Shown piece after piece: positions 2,403 through 63,515 of a stretch of DNA of 64,000 nt. Positions within the stretch are counted from its first letter, which is position 1, and each line of letters begins with the position of its first letter. Source of the DNA: Cliona cf. orientalis (lineage: Eukaryota; Porifera; Demospongiae; Clionaida; Clionaidae); NCBI GenBank assembly GCA_963930775.1, contig OZ005689.1:8444854-8508853 (forward strand). Reading direction: 5' to 3'. The position numbers and the translations under genes are program-made. The notes under the pieces are model-generated. The model did no database searches. It saw only the letters and a program-made list of their open reading frames with translations, and was not told the DNA's origin.

Positions 2403-3678
2403 CCTTTTTTCATTCATGTTTCAATATACTTCACACCCACCTATTACATCGCATAGCTTGCATAATTTCGAGTGCTCGGAAGAACATCTTTGCACTGAAG
2501 AAGAAGTTTTTGATCTTCTTTCATCCTTGGATATTACCAAAGCCAGTGGTCCTGATGGACTATCGGCCAGAATGCTGAAATCCACTGCAACGAGTATTAC
2601 CACTTCTGTGACTAAACTCTTCAACCTTTCTATCTCCAAATGTAGGGTACCTATGATGTGGAAGAAATCTGCAATAGTACCAATTCCAAAAGCCTCAGAT
2701 GTAACTTCTCCTTCTAACTACCGGCCGATATCGTTGCTTCCTCTTTTGAGTAAATTACTTGAAACACACTTCCACAGCCTGATCACCCAACACCTACCAT
2801 CTCGTCTTATTTTTTCTGACTCTCAGTGGGGATTTACAGAGGGAAGATCAACAGTGACAGCTCTTATAAAGTGTGTTGATAACTGGCTGAAGATGATGGA
2901 AGAAGGTAAAGAGATATGTGCAGTATTCTTTGATTACCGGAAGGCCTTTGATACCGTACCTCACCAGCCACTAATGGCTAAGCTTACAGGTCTTGAGCTA
3001 GATCATACCATCCTTTGCTGGCTGCAGGATTATCTCTCTTACAGGAGTCAAACAGTTGTTGTTGGTGGTGAAACATCTGATCCACTACCTGTTGTTTCTG
3101 GAGTACCCCAGGGTTCGGTGCTCGGTCCTCTCTTATTTCTTCTTTATATTAACGATCTCCCAAGTGCTGTATCTGGCTATGTGAATCTCTTTGCTGATGA
3201 TGTTCTGCTGTATCATGTAATTTCTTCCGCAGAAGACTATACTGTACTGCAAGAGATGGTGAGTTCCATTGAGCAATGGTCAACTAATAACTACCTTTAT
3301 CTCCACCCAATGAAATGCAAGTATATGATTATCTCTCGTAAGCGGTCACCCACACTTCCAGAAAAGTCCTTGGAATTGCTTGGGAATGAACTGGAGCGAG
3401 TCAACAGCTATAAATACTTGGGTGTGCTGCTTATAAGCGATCTATCTTGGTCTTCTCATGTTGGCAACATTTGCACTAAGGCACGCCGTGTACTGGGTCT
3501 CCTCTACAGGAGGTTTTATGGGCAGACCTCGCAGAGTTCATTGAAACAGCTGTATCTGTCCCTAGTTAGACCCCACATGGAGTATGCATGTCAAGTATGG
3601 GACCCTCATTTGGTGAAAGACAAGAAAGCAATTGAAAGTGTCCAGAAGTTTGCTCTGAAAGTAGTAACCGCACACTGA
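2374..3678 (+). pseudogene. Non-LTR reverse transcriptase, truncated (CR1/L2-like)
   Basis: An open frame of 434 codons with the reverse-transcriptase core of LINE elements in order: KASGPDGLSARML, NYRPISLLPLLSKLLE, FFDYRKAFDTVPH, SGVPQGSVLGPLLFLLYIND, then the catalytic FADD box near 3190-3201, and the thumb-like C-terminal part. In a working element this enzyme copies RNA at a nicked target. Here there is no endonuclease domain upstream, and the frame ends abruptly at VVTAH exactly where the right inverted arm begins, so both ends are missing. The first ATG lies inside a nested inverted repeat and is unlikely to be a true start. The clade assignment (CR1/L2/Rex group) is from motif resemblance only. 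Confidence 0.85.
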
Positions 3679-5147
3679 ACTTGCTAATAGCCATAGCTAG
3701 CTAACCTGAAACACTTTCAGACTATGCAAATGGAAGAATCCCGCGCCCGCTTAACCAACCAACCAATCAGATTTCTGAATGTTTCTGACGGGGGTGGGGC
3801 TGATCAATGTGCAGAGATGCACCGTAGTAGATGCGCGCGGGCTACAGCTTTGCCAAGTGCGCGTGCGCAGTAAATCTATCAATATTTGCTGAGCTGGTTA
3901 AACATTAATTTTGATTAATGTAAAGACGAGCACCATCGTCGATCGTTTCGAGATCAACTCCGGTCCAACCCACTCAGCTGAACCCACTCCGGACCCATGG
4001 GATAAAGCTAGAATACCTCGTACTTCTACAAATCCATTCCCTCTGACACCGCGACAACTAAATTCCTACTCAGGTATGCAATTATCATGCTCATGACTTT
4101 ATTTGGCTCCCATAAGTCGGATCATTGTTGCGTTTGTAACCTTGAAATTAATATCAATGTGCCCGATGAGTTTACGGTGTGTATATTTAATATCTTCCTG
4201 GGGTCAAAGGGCAGCCTACATATGGCCGCTTTTACTTACAGCATAACTTTTGCTGGCATTAATGTCATCCCACAATACATTCATTGTTTATATCTGGGAA
4301 GGTTTTACGTGAGGTTAAAGTCCATCTGTATGAGCAGTGGGTTGTTACAGTATTATCAGCCCACATACCTATACATTGTATATCTGGGGAGATTTTACGT
4401 GAGGTCAGAGGTCACACATAAATCACCCCCTGATTATTGTGTTGGTAAGTCAGTATTACATGGGGAGATTTTACGTGAGGTCAGAGGTCACACATAAAGC
4501 ACCCCCTGATTAATGGAGTATTATATGGGAAGATTTTACGTGAGGTTAAAGTTCATCTGTATGAGCAGTGTGTTGTTGCAGTATTATCAGCCCACATACC
4601 TATGCATTGTATATATCTGGGGAGATTTTACGTGAGGTCAGAGGTCACACATAAAGCACCCCCTGATTATTGTGTTGGTAAGTCAGTATTACATGGGGAG
4701 ATTTTACGTGAGGTCAGAGGTCACACATAAAGCACCCCCTGATTAATGGAGTATTATATGGGAAGATTTTACGTGAGGTTAAAGTTCATCTGTATGAGCA
4801 GTGTGTTGTTGCAGTATTATCAGCCCACATACCTATGCATTGTATATATCTGGGGAGATTTTACGTGAGGTCAGAGGTCACACATAAAGCACCCCCTGAT
4901 TATTGTGTTGGTAAGTCAGTATTACATGGGAAGATTTTACGTAAGAACTTTGACCTTACGTAAAATCTTCCCATATAAAGTGAACGAATGTAAACATTGG
5001 GAATACTTTACATGTGACGTAAAATCCTCCCATGATTAGATCATGGCAGAAGTCACGTAAAATCTCCCCATGATTAACCCAAGGGAGAAGTCACGTAAAA
5101 TCTTCCCATGATAGAATCATGGCAATTTTCCTACTTTTACGTAAACA
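3670..5147 (-). repeat. Right inverted arm with ~235-bp tandem units
   Basis: Inverted copy of the left arm. Between about 4260 and 4930 a unit of roughly 235 bp recurs, each with GGGGAGATTTTACGTGAGGT, a stretch starting CAGAGGTCACACATAAAGCA and a block starting TATCAGCCCACATACC. The left arm has only one such unit, so the expansion happened after the arms formed. Confidence 0.8.
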
Positions 5148-5169
5148 TCTGTAGGACCTTGGCACAGCT

Positions 5170-5640
5170 GGAGTGGTGCACGCACGGGTAAGGTATTCAT
5201 CACGGATCCGCGCACACTACGGGCCGGGCAAGGAATTCCTAATTGAAGGATGCACGGGTAAGGTATTCCTGTATCCGGGTACACTACGGGCAAGGAATTT
5301 CCCATTGGCACAGACGAAGGGGTGCACGGGTAAGGTATTCACAGTGGATCCGCGCACACTACGGGCAAGGAATTCCTAACTGAAGGGATGCACGGGTAAG
5401 GTATTTCCCTGATGTGGGTACAGCACACTACGGGCAAGGAATTTCACATAGGCACAGTATCGTCAACATGCAAGGGGTGCACAGGTAAGGCATTCCCAGA
5501 TGTGGGTACAGCACACTACGGGTGTCGTCAACATGCAAGGGGTGCACGGGTAAGGTATTCCTGACCACAGCACACTACGGGCAAGGAGTTTGCGTCGAAA
5601 GTGTATAACCTTAGGGGTGCACGGGTAAGGCATTCCCAGA
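5170..5640 (+). promoter_or_regulatory. Alternating GGGCAAGGAATT / GGGTAAGGTATTC array, copy A
   Basis: Two related short repeats alternate about 12 times, 30-40 bp apart: CACTACGGGCAAGGAATTTC and GGGTGCACGGGTAAGGTATTC. The same alternation lies upstream of kinase copies B and C and, more diverged, upstream of receptor R5. It stops about 80 bp before the kinase ATG. A regulatory role is inference from position; it might also be a satellite that travelled with the gene. Confidence 0.6.
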
Positions 5641-5722: not shown

Positions 5723-6091
5723 ATGGCAGGAAAGTATCTTTTTTCGAGCCTTGAGCCATACAAACTGACACGTGTTGAGCTGACTGGCATTAAGCTTGGT
5801 CATGGCTCGTATGCTTCTGTGGTGGAGGTGAATTACATGGGACTAAAGTGTGCTGGAAAGAAGGTCCACGAAGTACTTTTTGAGCAGGGGGAAACCAACT
5901 ACATTGTTCGTCACTTTGAGGAAGAATATCGTATCCTTAGCTCACCATTATCCAACCCAAACTTTCCCCCTTCCTTTATCTACGGTTTTTAGGAGTTCAC
6001 TTCAAATTATGAAAATAAAAGAGTGCCGATGCTAGCGATGGAGTTCTTACCTATGAACTTGACATCCTGTATCCAGAAGCATGGGATACCT
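5723..6091 (+). pseudogene. Kinase copy A: truncated N-terminal kinase exon
   Basis: Starts MAGKYLFSSLEPYKLTRVEL and follows the N-lobe of copies B and C: glycine loop GHGSYASVV, the β3 lysine in KCAGKK, then the αC region HFEEEYRILSS. Past that point small changes shift the frame and give a stop at 5990-5992. DNA similarity continues to about 6091 (CATGGGATACC) and then ends, so the catalytic loop, SH2 and pseudokinase parts are absent. It keeps the complete upstream repeat array. It is best read as a 5' fragment left by an incomplete duplication. Confidence 0.85.
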
Positions 6092-22879: not shown

Positions 22880-24440
22880 TTCGACCCGCGTACAGTATGT
22901 CACACTATACGCGCAAGGAATTACCCGTACTAATATCTATGGTATACACTACGAGCAAGGAATTTCCCATTGGCACTGACGAAGGGGTGCACGAGTAAGG
23001 TATTCACCACGGATCCGCACACACTATACGGTACGGGAAGCCTTCGGAATTCCCCACTGAAGGGATGCACGGGTAAGGTATACCCCGGATCCGGCTATAC
23101 ATTTCCGGGTACCTAAACGTATAGTGCACACTACGGGGGTATTTATAAAAAGAGGAACGGGAAATGAGGAAATGGGAAACGGAGAAACGTGGAAATGAAG
23201 AAATGAACTGGAAATGGTCGTCGTTTGACTTGAAACTATTAGTCCTGATCTACAGCTGGCACTGACGCTATTTGAAGTAAACTTGATCTGTTATTAAGGA
23301 TTTTGACAGCTCTACCGGCACACCGTGGTACCCTCTATTATCTATTGTGGTACTGATAGTAATACACCACCAATGATGATCCGTGCCTCCATTGATGGTA
23401 CTTGTATCATACTTAGCTAGAATCCTGTCTCAAGTTTATGGGCAAGTGGGCCTATAGATAGCGCCTGTGCACATCTATTGTCACAAACCAGGCCCTCCCT
23501 CAGCGGCCGGGTTTATCCTCAGAAAGAACTTCTGGTAAACCCTGCAGAATGTGAGGGTCTGGCCCGGGCTTGTGGACACGAGTACACACCTAGAACTTGA
23601 ATCCAGCCAGCTAACTTCAAAATTTTAATAAAAGGAGTTAATTATATTACTTGTATGGGTAGACGATACACATAATATTATATTATGTGTGTACCTATCA
23701 GTCACATCCAGTCTGACTATCTAGTAGCAGTACACTCACAGGGCAACCATCGTGATTTGTGATGGGATAGCAAAGTCTTTTTTACGTACATGATACCAAA
23801 AAAACTAATGGGAGGCTATACATACCTATATTACTGACTCTGATATACTAGGTGGATATGATTGTCCCTACAAATAGTGTAGCTACATTTTGATACTGCA
23901 ATCCCTTCTTCATCCTTTAATACCCAGATTTTTGTTAATTTTTGTAGTAACTTGGAAACCGGGTCTCAATGACTTGACTCTTCATGTTACATTCAATATT
24001 CTACTCTCTGGGCTGGCCTGCGAGATGCTTGTACTAACTGCAGGCCCTACATACACTCTGGAGCTTCAAGTTTAGCATGACAGTGGCTCTCATTGTTTTG
24101 ACGACCATTTCCAGTTCATTTCTTCATTTCCTCATTTCTCCGTTTCCCATTTCCTCATTTCCCGTTCCCCCTTTTATAAATACCCACACTACGGGCAAGG
24201 AATTTCCCATTGGCACAGACGAAGGGGTGCACGGGTAAGGTATTACCCGGATCTGAGTGTTGCACACTACGGGCAAGGAATTTCACATAGGCACAGTATC
24301 GTCAACATGCAAAGGGGTGCACGGGTAAGGCATTCTCGACACGGTACAGAACGTACACTACGGGCAAGGAGTTTTGCGTCGATAGTGCATAACATTAATT
24401 AGGGGTGCACGGGTAAGGTATTCCCAGACGAGGATACTAA
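22880..24440 (+). promoter_or_regulatory. Alternating array upstream of kinase copy B, split by an insertion
   Basis: GCGCAAGGAATTACCC, TACGAGCAAGGAATTTCCC, TGCACGAGTAAGGTATTC, TGCACGGGTAAGGTATACC precede 23137. The pattern resumes at 24186 (ACACTACGGGCAAGGAATTT, GTGCACGGGTAAGGTATTACC) and ends about 80 bp before the ATG at 24505. The middle (23137-24185) is a transposon. In copy C the array is continuous. Confidence 0.6.
23137..24185. mobile_element. Mutator-like element, long TIRs, 9-bp duplication
   Basis: Inverted ends of about 85 bp begin GGGTATTTATAAAAAGAGGA and include AAATGAGGAAATGGGAAACG. The 9 bp ACACTACGG flank both sides (23128-23136, 24186-24194). Copy C has one ACACTACGG at the same place and no insert. 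Long TIRs with a 9-bp duplication fit the MULE superfamily. The 0.9-kb interior has no transposase, so it is non-autonomous. Confidence 0.85.
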
Positions 24441-26055
24441 AAACCATTGTCCAGTAATCATATCACGTTCAGAGACACAAATTTTCGAGTCTGAGAATTT
24501 TATTATGGTAGGAAAGTATATTTTTTCGAGCCTTGAGCCATACAAACTGACACTTGTTGAGTTGACTGGCATAAAGCTTGGTCATGGCTCGTATGCTTCT
24601 GTGGTGGAGGTGAATTACATGGGACTAAAGTGTGCTGGAAAGAAGATCCACGAAGTACTTCTTGAGCAGGGGGAAACCAACTACATTGTTCGTCACTTTG
24701 AGGAAGAATGTCGCATCCTTAGCTCACTGCGACATCCAAACATTGTCCAGTTCTTGGGAATTCACTTCAGTGAAAATAAAAGAGTGCCGATGCTAGTGAT
24801 GGAGTTCTTACCCATGAACCTGACATCCTGTATTCAGAAGCACGGAATACTTCCAGAGGAGATAGGTTATTCGATTCTTTACGATGTGGCACTGGGGCTG
24901 TACTTTCTACACAACCAATCATCTCCCATCGTTCATCGAGATCTCTCTGCCAACAACATTCTCCTCACATATAACATGGATGCCAAGATTTCTGACCTTG
25001 GTGTTGCGAGGATACTCAACTTAACACCATTACAAGCCAGTCAACTAACTCAGACACCTGGGACGCCTGCATGCGTACATGCCACCAGAAGTGATGGTGG
25101 CAAATCCTAAGTACAACAGTAGCATTGACGAGTTTTCCTTCGGTATCATGATGATACACATCTTTAGTGGGCAGTGGCCAGAGCCGGAGTGTCCTCAGAT
25201 TGAAATGTCAGAGAGCGGTGAAATGATTCCAGTTACTGAAGCTGAACGTCGCAGGACTTTCTTAAAGGCCATTGGTGACGACCACCCACTCACTAACGCC
25301 ATAATGTCATGCATCCACAACGATCCCAGGAAGAGAATGCATGCATACGATATTGCCCAACTTATGGCGGAAATGGTGCAAGAGTTTCCACGAGATCAGC
25401 TTGATCTACTCGAGCATATCAGTAGGGCAAAGGAAACAGCACAAGTGAAACCACATGGAGAATTCGATTCAGAAGAAGAGGATGATTGTCCTGACGATGA
25501 ATATGACTCAGAGGAATATGGAGATGCCACGGTGAGTGATTGAGCTTAATTTTAAACTCCAAAACGTTAGGAATAATTATGGAAATATACACACAGAAAG
25601 TAGATGTGCATCATCTTCATAATAATTATTGTCATTTTTTTGCCTTTCTTATACAAATGGAGAACTCAAAAATTTGCTTCATGTATGCCAAATTTATTAT
25701 TCTACTACACAGATGGTAATATATGGTCATTTTTTGTGTAGATATTAAAAGCAAGGCAATTAAGGGTAGATATTGCACTCCCCTGGGTGCAGTACATTGT
25801 ACATGCCCTTGTTTGTATAGGAAGGTGTGACTTAGCTATAGGCGACAATCACACCTTGGTATAGATTTGCAACAAACAACCTTATTCTAACTGTCAGTGT
25901 GATTTTAGCCGAAGAGCAGTTTATGTTTGAGTTCATAATTATTGTTAATTAATGCTACGGTAGCTACCATGCATGCACACATTATTGCCCTGTTTCATGA
26001 GGCTACAGTAATAATATGTACGTGTGGGCACTAACTACAAGTTCATAAAATTAAT

Positions 26056-27515: not shown

Positions 27516-27798
27516 ATAATACTTTTGCATACCTGCAGATCCAAAATACACCTGTATCACAGCCAGTATCAGACGAACGACACATATACGACATAGAATC
27601 TCATGAGACAGATGATGTATCATCCATGGTTGAGCTTGAGTCATGGTACTTTGGAAACATTGACAGTACCCTAGCACGCACTAAGTGCAAGAAAGATGGC
27701 GACTTTCTTGTACGATATTCAATCGACAAGCAAAGGTATATCATATCGTACCGATTCAATGATACTTGTCATCACTGCATTGTGCAAGTAAGTTTTAA

Positions 27799-28791
27799 GG
27801 TACCATTAAATTGCGTGGGCGTGAGGTGGGGGATATGACACCTAAACCACATCAAAGTCATTAGTGAGGTGCATGTTGTGTAACCACGCCCTTTTAATTG
27901 CACAGGTCTCAGGGGTGTGGCTGCTAGAGCCGGAAGTGTTCATTTAATATCCTCCATGGACCGGAAGCCGTGCCGGAAGGGAGGGGCCAGGCCACGCCCA
28001 AAACAGCCCCACCCTGTTCCCCAAGGACCACGATTCTCAATCAAGTGCCTACTAACCACCGGATGTCCACCGGAAGCCCACAATCAATCCCAATTAAAAC
28101 ACACAGCTTCCTCAAGGCCAAAACACACACAAACACTTGGAGGCCGTTCTGCCACACCGCCCACACAAGAGCTCACCTCATTTCCTGTGTGGGCGGAGTA
28201 ACAACACGTCATCGCAACCACATCCGCTTCAAACTATCGTCAGCTTCCGTCCAGCCGTACAGGCCCCTCGATCGCACCGCCGTACAGTGCCTCATTAACA
28301 GACATGGCCTCACCTTTGACCTCCTGCCACGCCCCCAAAGCCTCCTGGACGGGTTCAAAGGTCACCACCGCATCCGGGACACGCCCACCTATCGCCGCAG
28401 CCAAGTCCCCGGCCCCGATGTCTAAGCACTGGCCTGTGAAGCCACGCCCAATCGGAAGCAATAAAACCTGCATTAACGCACACGCACACACTCCACACAG
28501 TGCCAGGAACACGCCCACATGCTTAATTAGGCCTAATTAGCTTTTTTTAAGTCGTTGCGGTTAATAGTTAAGCAAGAATGCTTTGATCTTGCTTTGATGT
28601 GGGCAATTACCGGCCTTTTCTTCAGGGGCCACTTCCGGTCGCTAATTACACGCGCATAATCATCCCTGGCCGATTCTGGACACGCCCACCTTCGACCAAA
28701 AGCACTCGTATGGCCTCTTCGGCCACGCCCCTTTACGATTCGCTAATTGAATTAGCCATTCCTGACGCTCACGCCCACGCAATTAAATGCT
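27799..28791. mobile_element. TTAA-flanked element, copy 1
   Basis: Left end GGTACCATTAAATTGCGTGG follows TTAA (27795-27798) inside the donor of the SH2 exon. The right end is CGCCCACGCAATTAAATGCTAC. No TTAA follows it and the next sequence is not the kinase gene, so a rearrangement removed the right flank. It is about 95% alike to the copy at 61234-62251. TTAA targets suggest a piggyBac/Kolobok-like mover. No transposase. Confidence 0.75.
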
Positions 28792-29074
28792 ACTGATTTC
28801 CCTGGGGCTGACACTGTGATATTATTTTATGGACCTTCGTAGCTCCAGCACAGAACCGTAGCCTCATCGATAAATTTAACCAGCTATAGCTATCCGCCAT
28901 AAGTTATACTAAACTTTCATTTGTCCCAGAAATCAATAAGAAATCCAAAATGGTAAGAAATCATCGCAAGCAAAGCAGAAATCAAACACTAGGAGGGAAA
29001 TCTGGTCTGAAATCGGAAATCAACCATCACTCGAAATCATAGCTGAAATCAAGAAATCTGTGTTATTACTAGTA
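28792..29074. other. No gene seen
   Basis: Unique sequence right of the TTAA element with a short A/T-rich AAATC-repetitive stretch (AGAAATCA repeats, ~28930-29060). Confidence 0.35.
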
Positions 29075-38039: not shown

Positions 38040-38440
38040 AAATGGTACAGGATCGACAAATTCATTTTAGCGAAGTACCCCGATCAGAAACGCACTACGA
38101 TTAAAGACTTTCCCAGGAGCTACACTAATACAATACGGGTAAGGAATTTAGCCACTTTTGATAGGGGTATATATATACGGTATCGCTGAGCAAGTAAAAG
38201 GACACACGAGCAAGGATTTACCATACTTTTCTGTGTGTCATCCATAAATAAACGGATACAGGAGCAAGGAATTCGCTTCTTGCAAGGTGACTCTCTAAAC
38301 TGTAAGTGATGGTGGTTGATCGAGACAGACACTCAGCAGTTAAGTTGGCCTCATGCTTCAAGCTATGAAATTTACAGGTGTCTATGAGATTTTTACAAGT
38401 GTCTATGAGAAATAGACACCTCCTCTTGACCAATCAGATC
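38040..38440 (+). pseudogene. Ghost of an R5-type gene start and its repeat array
   Basis: GGTACAGGATCGACAAATTC, ACGGGTAAGGAATTTAGCCAC, ACACGAGCAAGGATTTACC and GGAGCAAGGAATTCGC follow the order seen at 60795-60975, then GTGATGGTGGTTGATCGAGA matches the R5 start (ATGGCAGTCGATCGAGACAG). The frame is lost after about 15 codons. Directly after it the kinase block C begins. Confidence 0.65.
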
Positions 38441-39639: not shown

Positions 39640-40095
39640 ACAGTATGTCACACTATACGCGCAAGGAATTGCCCGTATAACGTGTATCACACTACGCGAG
39701 CGAGGAATTTCCCATTGGCACGGACGAAGGGGTGCACGAGTAAGGTATTCACCACGGATCCGTACACACTCTACGGTACGGGCAAGGAATTCCCCACTGA
39801 AGGGATCCACGGGTAAGGTATTCCCCGGATCCGGCTATACGTTTCCGGGTACCTATTTACGTATAGTACACACTACGGGCAAGGAATTTCCCATTGGCAC
39901 AGACGAAGGGGTGCACAGGTAAGGTATTCACCGGATCCGGGTAGAGCACACTACGGGCAAGGAATTTCGCATAGGCACAGTATCGTCAACATGCAAAGGG
40001 TAAGGCATTCCCTATCACAGTACAGTTACTGTATGTACACTACGGGCAAGGAGTTTTGCGTCGACAGTTAGGGGTGCACGGGTAAGTTATTCCTA
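39640..40095 (+). promoter_or_regulatory. Alternating array upstream of kinase copy C
   Basis: GCGCAAGGAATTGCCC, GAGCGAGGAATTTCCC, TGCACGAGTAAGGTATTC, CGGGCAAGGAATTCCC, CCACGGGTAAGGTATTCCCC and so on to GGTGCACGGGTAAGTTATTCC. Uninterrupted here. The last unit is about 80 bp from the ATG, the same distance as in copies A and B. Confidence 0.6.
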
Positions 40096-40173: not shown

Positions 40174-47616
<7,443 letters not shown>

Positions 47617-48640
47617 AGCAAGCATGCACTAGAAAGCATTATTACTATTAACAAACTTTTTATTTACCATTGCTGCTTTATTGATCAACTATATACTGGT
47701 TATACTATATATGAACCCTTGACCACATCCCCAGTGGCTGTATAGTTCTAATGGTGCATGTGGTAAAGGTCGTCAACACACACATCGATGCCAGGGCCTC
47801 AATCGTAGAGATGGAGTCTAAGATCAACTTTCGACTTCGAGTTTCGATGCTTCTATCAAAGGAGATGAACTCGACAGCACAGTACAGCTTCCGAACTTCA
47901 GATCGGTCGTGGCATGACGCGTGCTATAAATAGCGCAAGGCTAGCTTTATTTATCCACAGGATTACGTCAGCCAAGAGAACGCGTGAAGTTCGGCCGGCA
48001 TTACTTGTCGGAGAAAGTAGCACTCAGCTTTTAATGTATTCGCTGGATATGTATGTAAGTTAATATATGATTCTGTGGATTTTCAGGTCTCAGAAGTGTT
48101 CTGTAAAGGCTCTGAATTTTAGCGCTATGACGACATAGGTTACATCATAATTACAACATAATTACCTAATAACCGCAAAAAAGTAAATTTATACTGGGGA
48201 TGTAACAACGAAAAATATTTTCAGAAAGTGTCGTTTTGTGTCATAACGCACCCGATTGGTCAGAACGGTAGGGCCGTGTGCAAAAAACATGGTAACGAGA
48301 TGCACGAGGCGCAAAGCGCCGCGCGCTCGGCGCGGCCGGCCGGCCGGCCATCGATCGCGAGTTCGAGTACTCGAGTACGTACGAGTACAGCCTTGGGGCC
48401 GGCCGCCCCTCGGCCTAGGCTGCAGTATAGCTAGCTAGCTATAGCCTAGCTAGCCTAGCCCTAATCTCTCGATCTTGCGCCGGCGCCAGCATCGACGCCG
48501 GTTTGAGCGGAGTGAGAACGTCATCGTTGTACTCGCAAGCTGGGCCCACCAAAGACTTTAAGTTTCCGACTTCTCGCATATCTATGCTTCTTGCAAAGCA
48601 AGACTGAAGAAGCGAGTTAACTGTTCGCTGTCATACCGGT
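47617..48640. other. Kinase C 3' flank; GC-rich patch
   Basis: No gene recognised. 48290-48500 is GC-rich with GGCCGGCCGGCC and CpG-rich stretches; it might be a promoter for something unseen, but no exon follows. Confidence 0.35.
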
Positions 48641-60789: not shown

Positions 60790-60985
60790 ATGGTACAGGA
60801 TCGACAAATTCATGTTACTGGTCCCAGGATCTATTATACGCTACGGGCAATCAATTTAGCCACCGGGTACGGTATCGACATAGAGCAACTGAAACGACAC
60901 GAGCAAGGACTTTTGTTATGTTTCTGTATGACATCTGAAACAAAACGGCCATACGAGCAAGCAATTCATATCCTACAAAGTACGG
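60790..60985 (+). promoter_or_regulatory. GGCAAGGAATT-type repeat upstream of R5
   Basis: CTACGGGCAATCAATTTAGCC, ACACGAGCAAGGACTTTTG, ATACGAGCAAGCAATTCATA and TACAAAGTACGGGATG occur at 35-60 bp steps and end just before the ATG at 61001. They share the core of the kinase arrays and the local order of the ghost at 38040-38300. Confidence 0.5.
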
Positions 60986-61000
60986 GATGACTCTAAAGTG

Positions 61001-61973
61001 ATGGCAGTCGATCGAGACAGACGCTCAGTAGCTACCAACAAGCTAGGAGGCTATATATCCGTTTCTTTGTGTGTTTTATCTATTTATGCCTTTCAAATAG
61101 TGGCAAGTAAGGATAATTCAATGTCTAGATACCATTTTGATTTAATCAATATACCAAATCTTTTACCAGATCTAGATGTTGATCAGCCTCCGATATCGGT
61201 AATTGCATTCCTGGGCGAAAGAGCCTCGTTTAAGGTACCATTAAATTGCGTGGGCGTGAGGTGGGGGATATGACACCTAAACCACATCAAAGTCATTAGT
61301 GAGGTGCATGTTGTGTAACCACGCCCTTTTAATTGCACAGGTCTCAGGGTTGTGGCTGCTAGAGCCGGAAGTGTTCATTTAATATCCTCCATGGACCGGA
61401 AGCCGAGCCGGAAGGGAGGGGCCAGGCCACGCCCAAAACAGCCCCACCCTGTTCCCCAAGGACCACCATTCTCAATCAAGTGCCTACTAACCACCGGATG
61501 TCCACCGGAAGCCCACAATCAATCCCAATTAAAACACACAGCTTCCTCAAGGCCAAAACACACACAAACACTTGGAGGCCGTTCTGCCACACCGCCCACG
61601 CAAGAGCTCACCTCATTTCCTGTGTGGGCGGAGTAACAACACGTCATCGCAACCACATCCGCTTCAAACCATCGTCAGCTTCCGTCCAGCCGTACAGGCC
61701 CCTCGATCGCACCGCCGTACAGTGCCTCATTAACAGACGTGGCCTCACCTTTGACCTCCTGCCACGCCCCCAAAGCCTCCTCGCGGGGTTCAAAGGTCAC
61801 CACCGCTTCCGGGACACGCCCACCTATCGCCGAGGCCAAGTCCCAGGCGCCGATGTCCAAGCACTGGCCCGTGAAGCCACGCCCAATCGGAAGCAATAAA
61901 ACCTGCATTAACGCACACGCACACACTCCACACAGTGCCAGGAACACGCCCACATGCTTAATTAGGCCTAATC

Positions 61974-62008
<35 letters not shown>

Positions 62009-63515
62009 TCGTTGCGGTTAATAGTTAAGAAAGAATGCTTTGATCTTGCTTTGAAGTGGGCAATTACCGGTGTTTTCTTCAGGGGCCACTTCCGGTCGCT
62101 AATTACACGCGCATAATCATCCCTGGCCGATTCTGGACACGCCCACCTTCGACCAAAAGCACTCGTATGGGCTCTTCGGCCACGCCCCTTCACGATTCGC
62201 TAATTGAATTAGCCAATCCTGACGCTCACGCCCACGCACTTTGATGCTACCTTAACTGCTCCATCAGAGAAGGTGATATACTCTGGTATGTGGGTGGCAT
62301 CTATGTTCCAGGCTTACCACTTGAATATGACGTATCATTCACAACTGAAAGATCATGCAATGGCCAATGCATTACGTCTACACTTCAGATACGAGCAACA
62401 GAGCAGACAAATAGCTTACTGATTCAGTGTGCAGTGGTCACTGGTACAGGCTTGAATCGGACCTATTTTCCACCTACTACACGCCTACTCGTTCAAGGTA
62501 TGATAATACTAAGCCTGCATATATATGGAGGCTAATAATAATATTATAATTCATGAAAGTAGCCAGGAAGGGTGATGGACCTTCACCTTTTTATTGTATC
62601 GATTATTCCACTCTTTATCATAAACTAAAATAACCTTTACTCAATGTGAAATTCAAACAGTTGTATTAAAACTCTAGTCTTAATCCAGGGTGTAAATATT
62701 CTATTATAGATGTGAATGTATCAAAAAAAAGGAAACTTAAAGCACAGTTTCAAATTTGAGAAAATCAACAGTTATTAAATTTTTAAAAGACCATTTCTGT
62801 TTATTACCTTAATATTCAACTTTCATGCTTTCTACAAATTAATTGTTGTAAGTATACTTTTATCAGATCGAGTAGCTATTACCACAAACACAGAGTAAAT
62901 CCACTACACAGAGTACATTGCATGCTATGGTACATATTATAATAATGTTTCAAGCTACATACTACATACCACAGGGGAGGTGAAGGGGGGGGGGGTTCCA
63001 TAGCTTTGTCCCAATTTTGTAACAAACCACCATTTAACCATAATTTTGTCGACCTCTAGGTCCACCAGTACCACCACCTAGTTTACAAGTCACCATCATA
63101 CCTACTGACACCCAGCTAGTCATTGACCTCATATGGGAAGAACCTGTTTCTCTGATCAACAACAGCATCACCAACTACACGGTGAGAGTAAACGTTTCAC
63201 TTGCCCTTGAGACCTCTGAGGAATTGTTCTTGGACTATGAGAATACTACGACTGAAACATCATTGTTGTATAACATTAGCCAAAATGGGATTCATCCCTG
63301 TAGCATTTCTGTTGTGACTGTGGATGTATTGGCGCAAAATAAAGTAGGAATTGGGGAAGCAGCAAGTAGCACAATAATACCAAACATTGATTTGGAATTG
63401 TGCACCTCAAGCTCTGTGGTTGCAGCTCCTACTGTAACAATAACTGTCGTACCACCAATATACCCTGGATTGAAAGTACTTTCAACAGCCAATAAAAATA
63501 GGATGCTCATTTATG
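61001..63515 (+). CDS. R5: Ig/FN3 receptor, 5' exons, interrupted
   Basis: Exon 1 (61001-61106): MAVDRDRRSVATNKLGGYIS then hydrophobic VSLCVLSIYAFQIVA (signal peptide or anchor), phase-1 donor. Exon 2 (61170-62497) is split by the TTAA element 61234-62251; removing it and one TTAA joins ERASF to NCSIREGDILWYV and restores an Ig domain (Cys, Trp, IQCAVV) ending TTRLLVQG. Exon 3 (63060-63515): FN3 domain (GPPVPPPSLQV, LIWEEPVS, CSISVVTVDVLAQNKVG) with a phase-1 donor at ATTTATG|GTAGG. No transmembrane exon is seen by 64000, so the gene probably continues. Start chosen at the ATG; GTGATGG context. Confidence 0.7.
61234..62251. mobile_element. TTAA element, full copy inside the R5 Ig exon
   Basis: TTAA at 61230-61233 and 62252-62255. 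Left GGTACCATTAAATTGCGTGG; right end ...GCTACC. A 27-T tract (61978-62004) lies between the two halves. Frames inside (for example minus 61953-61675) differ from copy 1 mostly at amino-acid-changing sites and show no sign of selection. Confidence 0.82.
62498..63059. other. R5 intron 2
   Basis: GTATGATAAT donor to CTCTAG acceptor; AT-rich with a GGGGGGGGG stretch near 62986. Confidence 0.5.

Follow-up and report, generated by a model that had tools for sequence, protein, structure and literature searches.

Why does one repeat, built of two alternating variants, lie upstream of genes that belong to unrelated families? The window considered here, a whole stretch of 64,000 nucleotides from the sponge Cliona cf. 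orientalis, carries such arrays in front of three kinase copies (K1 to K3), and a preliminary description had proposed, from the fixed alternation of the variants and their fixed distance to the start codon, that they form a control module, a transcription start array or a targeted repeat. We followed the repeat through the window and the 217-Mb genome, together with a second word that accompanies it, and weighed what the two may be.

M1 arrays before the kinase copies and R5

The two variants, A (CACTACGGGCAAGGAATTTC) and B (TGCACGGGTAAGGTATTC), become one shared element on alignment, ACGGG[C/T]AAGG[A/T]ATT, in which two core bases are variable; we call it M1. Cores were classed as A or B by a C or a T directly after GGG. 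All copies of A and B in the window are on the + strand, and the - strand of the window held no match to either at up to four mismatches. The orders of cores (Table 1) reveal an alternation that is real yet imperfect, for K2 and K3 begin with AA and K1 contains BB; the A missing from the K1 order is represented by a truncated copy. A repeat based on GGGAAGATTTTACGTAA occurs at 952-1969 and 3669-5150 in inverted copies that are nearly identical (97-99%) and end just upstream of the K1 array.

Table 1. Positions of the features discussed within the window
Feature	Position	Strand	Remarks
K1 M1 array	5184..5634	+	12 cores, BABABABABBAB, plus truncated A CACTACGGG at 5514
K1 kinase start	5723..5989	+	frame ends after 89 codons
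K2 M1 array	22909..24422	+	10 cores, AABB-ABABAB, interrupted by insertion
Insertion within K2 array	23138..24184		about 1.05 kb, inverted ends GGTATTTATAAA and ACACTACGGG on both flanks; by eye, limits approximate
K2 kinase	24505..25540	+	open frame 24505-25107 (Pkinase E=9e-27), then other frame 25079-25540 (intron or frameshift)
Diverged M1 cores before R5 ghost	38135..38273	+	174, 103 and 49 nt before ATG 38309
K3 M1 array	39657..40091	+	11 cores, AABABABABAB
K3 kinase start	40175..40228	+	frame ends after 17 codons
Exact M2	47762..47776	+	no M1 array adjoining; upstream flank resembles L036
Diverged M1 cores before R5	60843..60966	+	158, 102 and 48 nt before ATG 61001; GGTACAGGATCGACAAATTC upstream at 60792
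R5 start	61001..61228	+	MAVDRDRRSVATNKLGGYISVSLCVLSIYAF..., signal-peptide-like by eye; repeat element from 61229

The arrays had been described as ending about 80 bp before the kinase ATG, and this agrees with the distance from the start of the last core to the ATG, which is 102, 96 and 97 nt in K1, K2 and K3, with the end of the K2 array corrected from 24440 to 24422 and the ATG of K3 from 40174 to 40175. The further claim of a fixed distance stands within the three kinases (96-102 nt) but not across families, where it spans 35-133 nt, and even among the kinases it is weak evidence, since they are duplicates. Alignment of five kinase promoters shows that the arrays were inherited by duplication, so that equal distances among kinases are not independent evidence. 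Four of the five kinase copies checked carry early stops (K1, K3 and, outside the window, L002 and L003), which likewise leads us to read the distance as inherited; K2 is the only one of the five in which none occurs, within its first 201 codons. A sixth copy, L004, whose start-codon context was not located, was omitted from the comparison.

A diverged form of M1 had also been noticed before the receptor gene R5 and its ghost, and this is borne out by three cores in front of each. Two later R5 frames gave no match in Pfam, Ig included. The repeat element that follows the first exon of R5 (61229-62250) is 96-98% identical to another at 27794-28793, which follows an SH2-containing frame; stretches resembling it in translation occur at two loci elsewhere, L102 and L105.

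Distribution, orientation and conservation of M1

The exact 20-mer A has 10 copies in 217 Mb, all on the + strand and all within C1:8.363-8.485 Mb, against none for the control. A looser core, allowed up to one mismatch, is found genome-wide at 328 sites on the + and 294 on the - strand, against 108 and 89 for the reversed control. From the surroundings of 40 remote loci we derived a wider, 19-bp form of M1, GCACTACGRGCAAGGAATT, which at up to two mismatches gives 102 matches in the 217-Mb genome (50 on the + and 52 on the - strand) and none on either strand for the control. Among the matches listed, at least 23 of the 102 are held by the kinase cluster, and the clusters that keep to a single strand lie on C1 at 8.36-8.49 (the kinases), 9.17-9.37 (seven places), 11.13-11.46 and 14.61-14.84 Mb, on C2 at 12.43-12.49 Mb (16 matches in 13 places), on C5 at 10.59-10.61 Mb and on C11 at 2.83-2.91 Mb; those of mixed strand, again among the matches listed, are C2:11.0-11.1, C9:6.69-6.74 and C1:13.6-13.8.

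Pairs of cores in the same orientation number 39, of which 32 lie in the kinase cluster (control 2), and a search for the convergent arrangement, with cores facing each other, returned none. A second degenerate form of M1 yields 22 pairs, 10 of them in C1:9.2, against none for the control. Sub-variants with AATT and with AGTT pair or alternate in C1:10.3 and C1:14.6 (31 bp apart) and in C1:9.2 (about 41 bp apart); as this occurs in several families, the paired arrangement is not confined to the kinases. At locus L049 (2937-3213), two M1 arrays face each other about 100 bp apart, with no gene recognised there.

The behaviour of M1 away from the kinases was examined in 46 loci with M1 matches, taken outside the kinase cluster and the loci already sampled, with 1269 bp around each and the seed match masked. 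Besides the seed, 24 of the 46 loci contain further copies of M1 on its strand, 57 in all, and 2 copies lie on the opposite strand, against a mean of 0.28 from an exact dinucleotide shuffle. The loci fall into 18 groups without flank similarity between them, and the excess of nearby copies over chance arises in 8 of these, with 22 of the extra copies in C1:9.2 and 13 in C11. One flank-similarity group joins C1:14.6 with C5:10.6. Tandem homology of whole units, judged by eye, is seen in the kinases, in C6:3.0 and in C1:9.2, with units of 35-41 bp in the last two; in L049, L050, L055 and L096 the spacers are, also by eye, unrelated. In a family-weighted table, information does not exceed 0.4 bit on either side of the 19 bp, the inside of the table being biased by the search itself.

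Conservation of the motif could be compared with its surroundings in two families. The second M1 (M1b, which is not the seed) was compared across an alignment of ten C2 promoters: it differs in 5.0% of comparisons, and the figure is 14.0% for the other columns between M1a and the ATG and 8.7% for the coding start. The second word described below, M2, differs in 11.4%, with row L051 far off there. Sliding blocks as conserved as M1b amount to 27 of 190, and those as conserved as M2 to 87 of 195. The alignment leaves aside L059, L081 and the other L051 copy, whose promoters are arranged otherwise. Constraint on M1 has moderate support in the C2 family. In the kinase arrays the cores differ by 3.6-4.8% and the spacers by 13-15% (4.1 and 14.8% in one comparison), and none of 295 shifts gives a value as low, although this contrast is probably in part an effect of misaligned units, given that the leader differs by just 6.2% and the coding sequence by 7.2%.

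The second motif and the neighbouring genes

Many M1 loci also contain a second word, M2 (GGTAAWGGTCGTCA), often upstream of M1, with which it has RGYAARG in common. Extended by one base to the 15-mer GGTAAWGGTCGTCAM, it has 6297 exact matches in 217 Mb, against 8 for the reversed control. Some copies sit within dispersed repeats and some before genes; the flanks of M2 are common to L011 and L028, and to the copy at 47762 of the window and L036. Taken by itself, M2 is possibly one of the genome's major promoter words, with the reservation that some of its copies are in repeats. In the 46 loci, at up to two mismatches, 23 copies of M2 are on the same strand as M1 and 3 on the opposite one (shuffle 0.26), and these sites occupy 24 loci of 7 groups, 14 of the 23 same-strand copies being in C2. 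In 21 of the 26 cases M2 precedes an M1 by 24-92 nt. Throughout the genome, M2 followed by M1 in the same orientation is found 10 times in about six contexts (control 0), four of these cases being one family and two one repeat.

Of the 46 seed loci, 18 have a gene that could be recognised: 11 at C2:12.4, 4 at C2:11.0, 2 with a MATH domain and 1 astacin. The other 28 yielded no recognisable gene, so that closeness to genes is seen for a part of the loci; the reading frames of the sequence sampled disclosed none at C1:9.2, C1:14.6, C6:3.0, C9:6.7, L049 and ten single-site loci. Wherever the start codon can be placed, it follows the last M1 by 35-133 nt. Such nearness is found for the kinases, R5, two C2 clusters and the locus L021, the MATH and astacin genes being known from downstream exons.

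At C2:12.4, all 11 seed loci have signal-peptide-like starts, with the ATG 35-133 nt after the last M1; two of them, L058 and L083, carry early stops, and L051 has two further copies with a start codon 48 nt after the last M1. Among the exons that follow, L058 gives a weak Ig match, below the Pfam cut-off, and the frame of L051, searched against Pfam, gave no Ig match. The ATG lies 84-100 nt after the last M1 in the four loci of C2:11.0, where an Ig match is again weak and below the Pfam cut-off in L056 and missing in L072. L021 encodes a secreted-looking protein with its ATG 72 nt after the last M1. The homologue of this gene at L020 is on the strand opposite to M1 and reads away from it; both L020 and L021 have M1 plus a nearby inverted M2-like word. 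At C11:2.8, a TRAF/meprin MATH domain lies downstream in L095 (E=1.9e-37) and L097 (E=3.2e-37), and none was seen by eye in the sequence examined of L096 and L098. At C5:10.6, L088 is followed at 0.9-3.2 kb by astacin exons (E=2.5e-26), of which the first was not found. Possible signal peptides are found in three of the five loci of C1:11.1 (L012-L014). Signal-peptide-like reading frames were counted downstream at 23 of the 46 loci and on the reverse side at 16, and at 12 against 8 of 43 core sites; the difference is weak, and the heuristic by itself is too noisy.

Possible functions and known systems

At several places M1 adjoins the start of a receptor-like or signalling gene, and because these genes are unrelated, a switch that controls them in common suggests itself. 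The earlier idea of a control module is supported in part by the recurrence of M1 in unrelated contexts, mostly in one orientation, before the ATGs of several families and often with M2. We give a probability of roughly 55% to the reading of M1 (GCACYACKRGCAAGGAATT) as a proximal-promoter module that has a direction, is bound by a putative factor and confers shared regulation. A homotypic cluster of M1 would offer several sites to one putative sequence-specific DNA-binding factor, and M2, far more abundant, would often act as its partner some tens of bases upstream. The arrays would lengthen and shorten as units are duplicated locally, the alternating A and B of the kinases being a repeat of two units, and would move along with the genes during tandem duplication. 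Binding of the factor would then drive transcription, and its targets, receptor-like and signalling proteins from several families unrelated to one another, would be expressed together. The strand bias might reflect a need of the factor to face the start site, or the growth of arrays by tandem duplication, and both may act.

Some of the same observations would be expected of a passive minisatellite, without function and simply copied along with the duplicated genes in front of which it lies. The kinase arrays have a higher-order repetition (142-bp offset, 76% identity), they are retained in front of the four broken copies, C1:9.2, with an array of about 41 bp and no recognised gene, yields 22 of the 57 extra sites, and loci lacking a recognised gene are the majority. 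We nevertheless hold this to be unlikely, because the M1 word recurs across groups without flank similarity and among unrelated spacers, and because single or paired copies stand before start codons with no tandem array. Somewhat less likely still is an origin of both words as promoter parts of mobile elements that were scattered beside genes. Looser cores do occur in dispersed repeats with shared flanks far apart (L017/22/42/46 and L018/24/26/27/28/41), flank similarity links L068/70/71 and L087-89 in spite of their different contigs, and the shared flanks of M2 and its thousands of exact copies fit as well; against this, the M1 loci of the C2, C11 and kinase families are, by eye, without the flanks of those repeats, and mobile elements may equally have captured a promoter word of the host.

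A 5' leader element acting at the RNA level, either a splice-donor-like or a translation-control word, would explain both the strand bias (57 against 2) and the location 35-133 nt before the ATG, and GGGTAAGG, or RGYAAGG, resembles what we take to be the 5' splice-site donor consensus. Yet the T of the GT donor is replaced by C in 27 of 43 exact cores outside the kinase region (C1:8.348-8.485 Mb), where the search was neutral at this position, so that M1 was rejected as a 5' splice site; in the family-weighted table C reaches 79% there, a value biased by the C-bearing seed. The arrays of L095 and L097, moreover, lie upstream of a TATAAAA-like stretch and hence probably outside the transcript, and we consider an RNA-level role improbable. 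The slightest chance goes to Rel/NF-kappaB sites, with GGAATT(T)CC within M1 as the bound core: several A copies read GGAATTTCCC, presumably a match to the kappaB consensus, and MATH-domain genes adjoin M1, but the bases beyond GGAATT carry less than 0.4 bit each. An NF-kappaB site was rejected as the identity of M1, the 9-mer GGARTTYCC being present in 13 of 130 distinct sites, not in most, and GGAATTCC in 13 of 130.

Beyond the proximal-promoter module itself, one may speculate, with a good deal more doubt, about a genome-wide receptor regulon, in which one dedicated factor would act through a 19-bp directional site over tandem kinases, Ig-like receptors, MATH-domain proteins and secreted proteases, the arrays spreading as the families expand. 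If true, one factor would command several tandem receptor and protease families, which bears on the open question of how tandemly expanding receptor families retain or acquire their expression. A long, recognisable motif common to unrelated families would also allow targets to be listed from sequence, their co-expression to be assessed and the factor to be fished with one oligonucleotide.

Searches of the literature for the words themselves (among them 10- to 13-mers) and for sponge promoter and immune topics returned no relevant report by title, and the M1 word was not found in the parts consulted of four papers (PMC4773876, PMC5429095, PMC12221973 and PMC13042239). Promoter clusters of like sites are nevertheless a known kind of arrangement, of which M1 would be a member. 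Homotypic clusters of transcription-factor sites occur in animal promoters and enhancers, and M1 is like them in having several copies of one word per few hundred bases, partly near gene starts, and unlike them in that its copies at a locus nearly all point one way and that the word is long (19 bp). Clustered immune families, too, share promoter modules, such as the W/S-X-Y elements of MHC class II genes; the order of M2 then M1 in several families would resemble these as ordered, directional elements before tandem members, whereas M1 differs in being common to unrelated families (kinase, Ig-like, MATH and astacin). Among early animals, the part consulted of a promoter survey of Amphimedon queenslandica describes 15 motifs enriched near starts, four of them unnamed (PMC4773876). 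These are likewise words near start sites, and the unnamed ones may coincide with M1 or M2. A placozoan promoter motif is linked, in the part consulted of its report, to the ends of Mutator transposons (PMC12221973); although it belongs to another animal and context and was compared by description rather than by sequence, it offers the like case of a word common to a transposon and to promoters.
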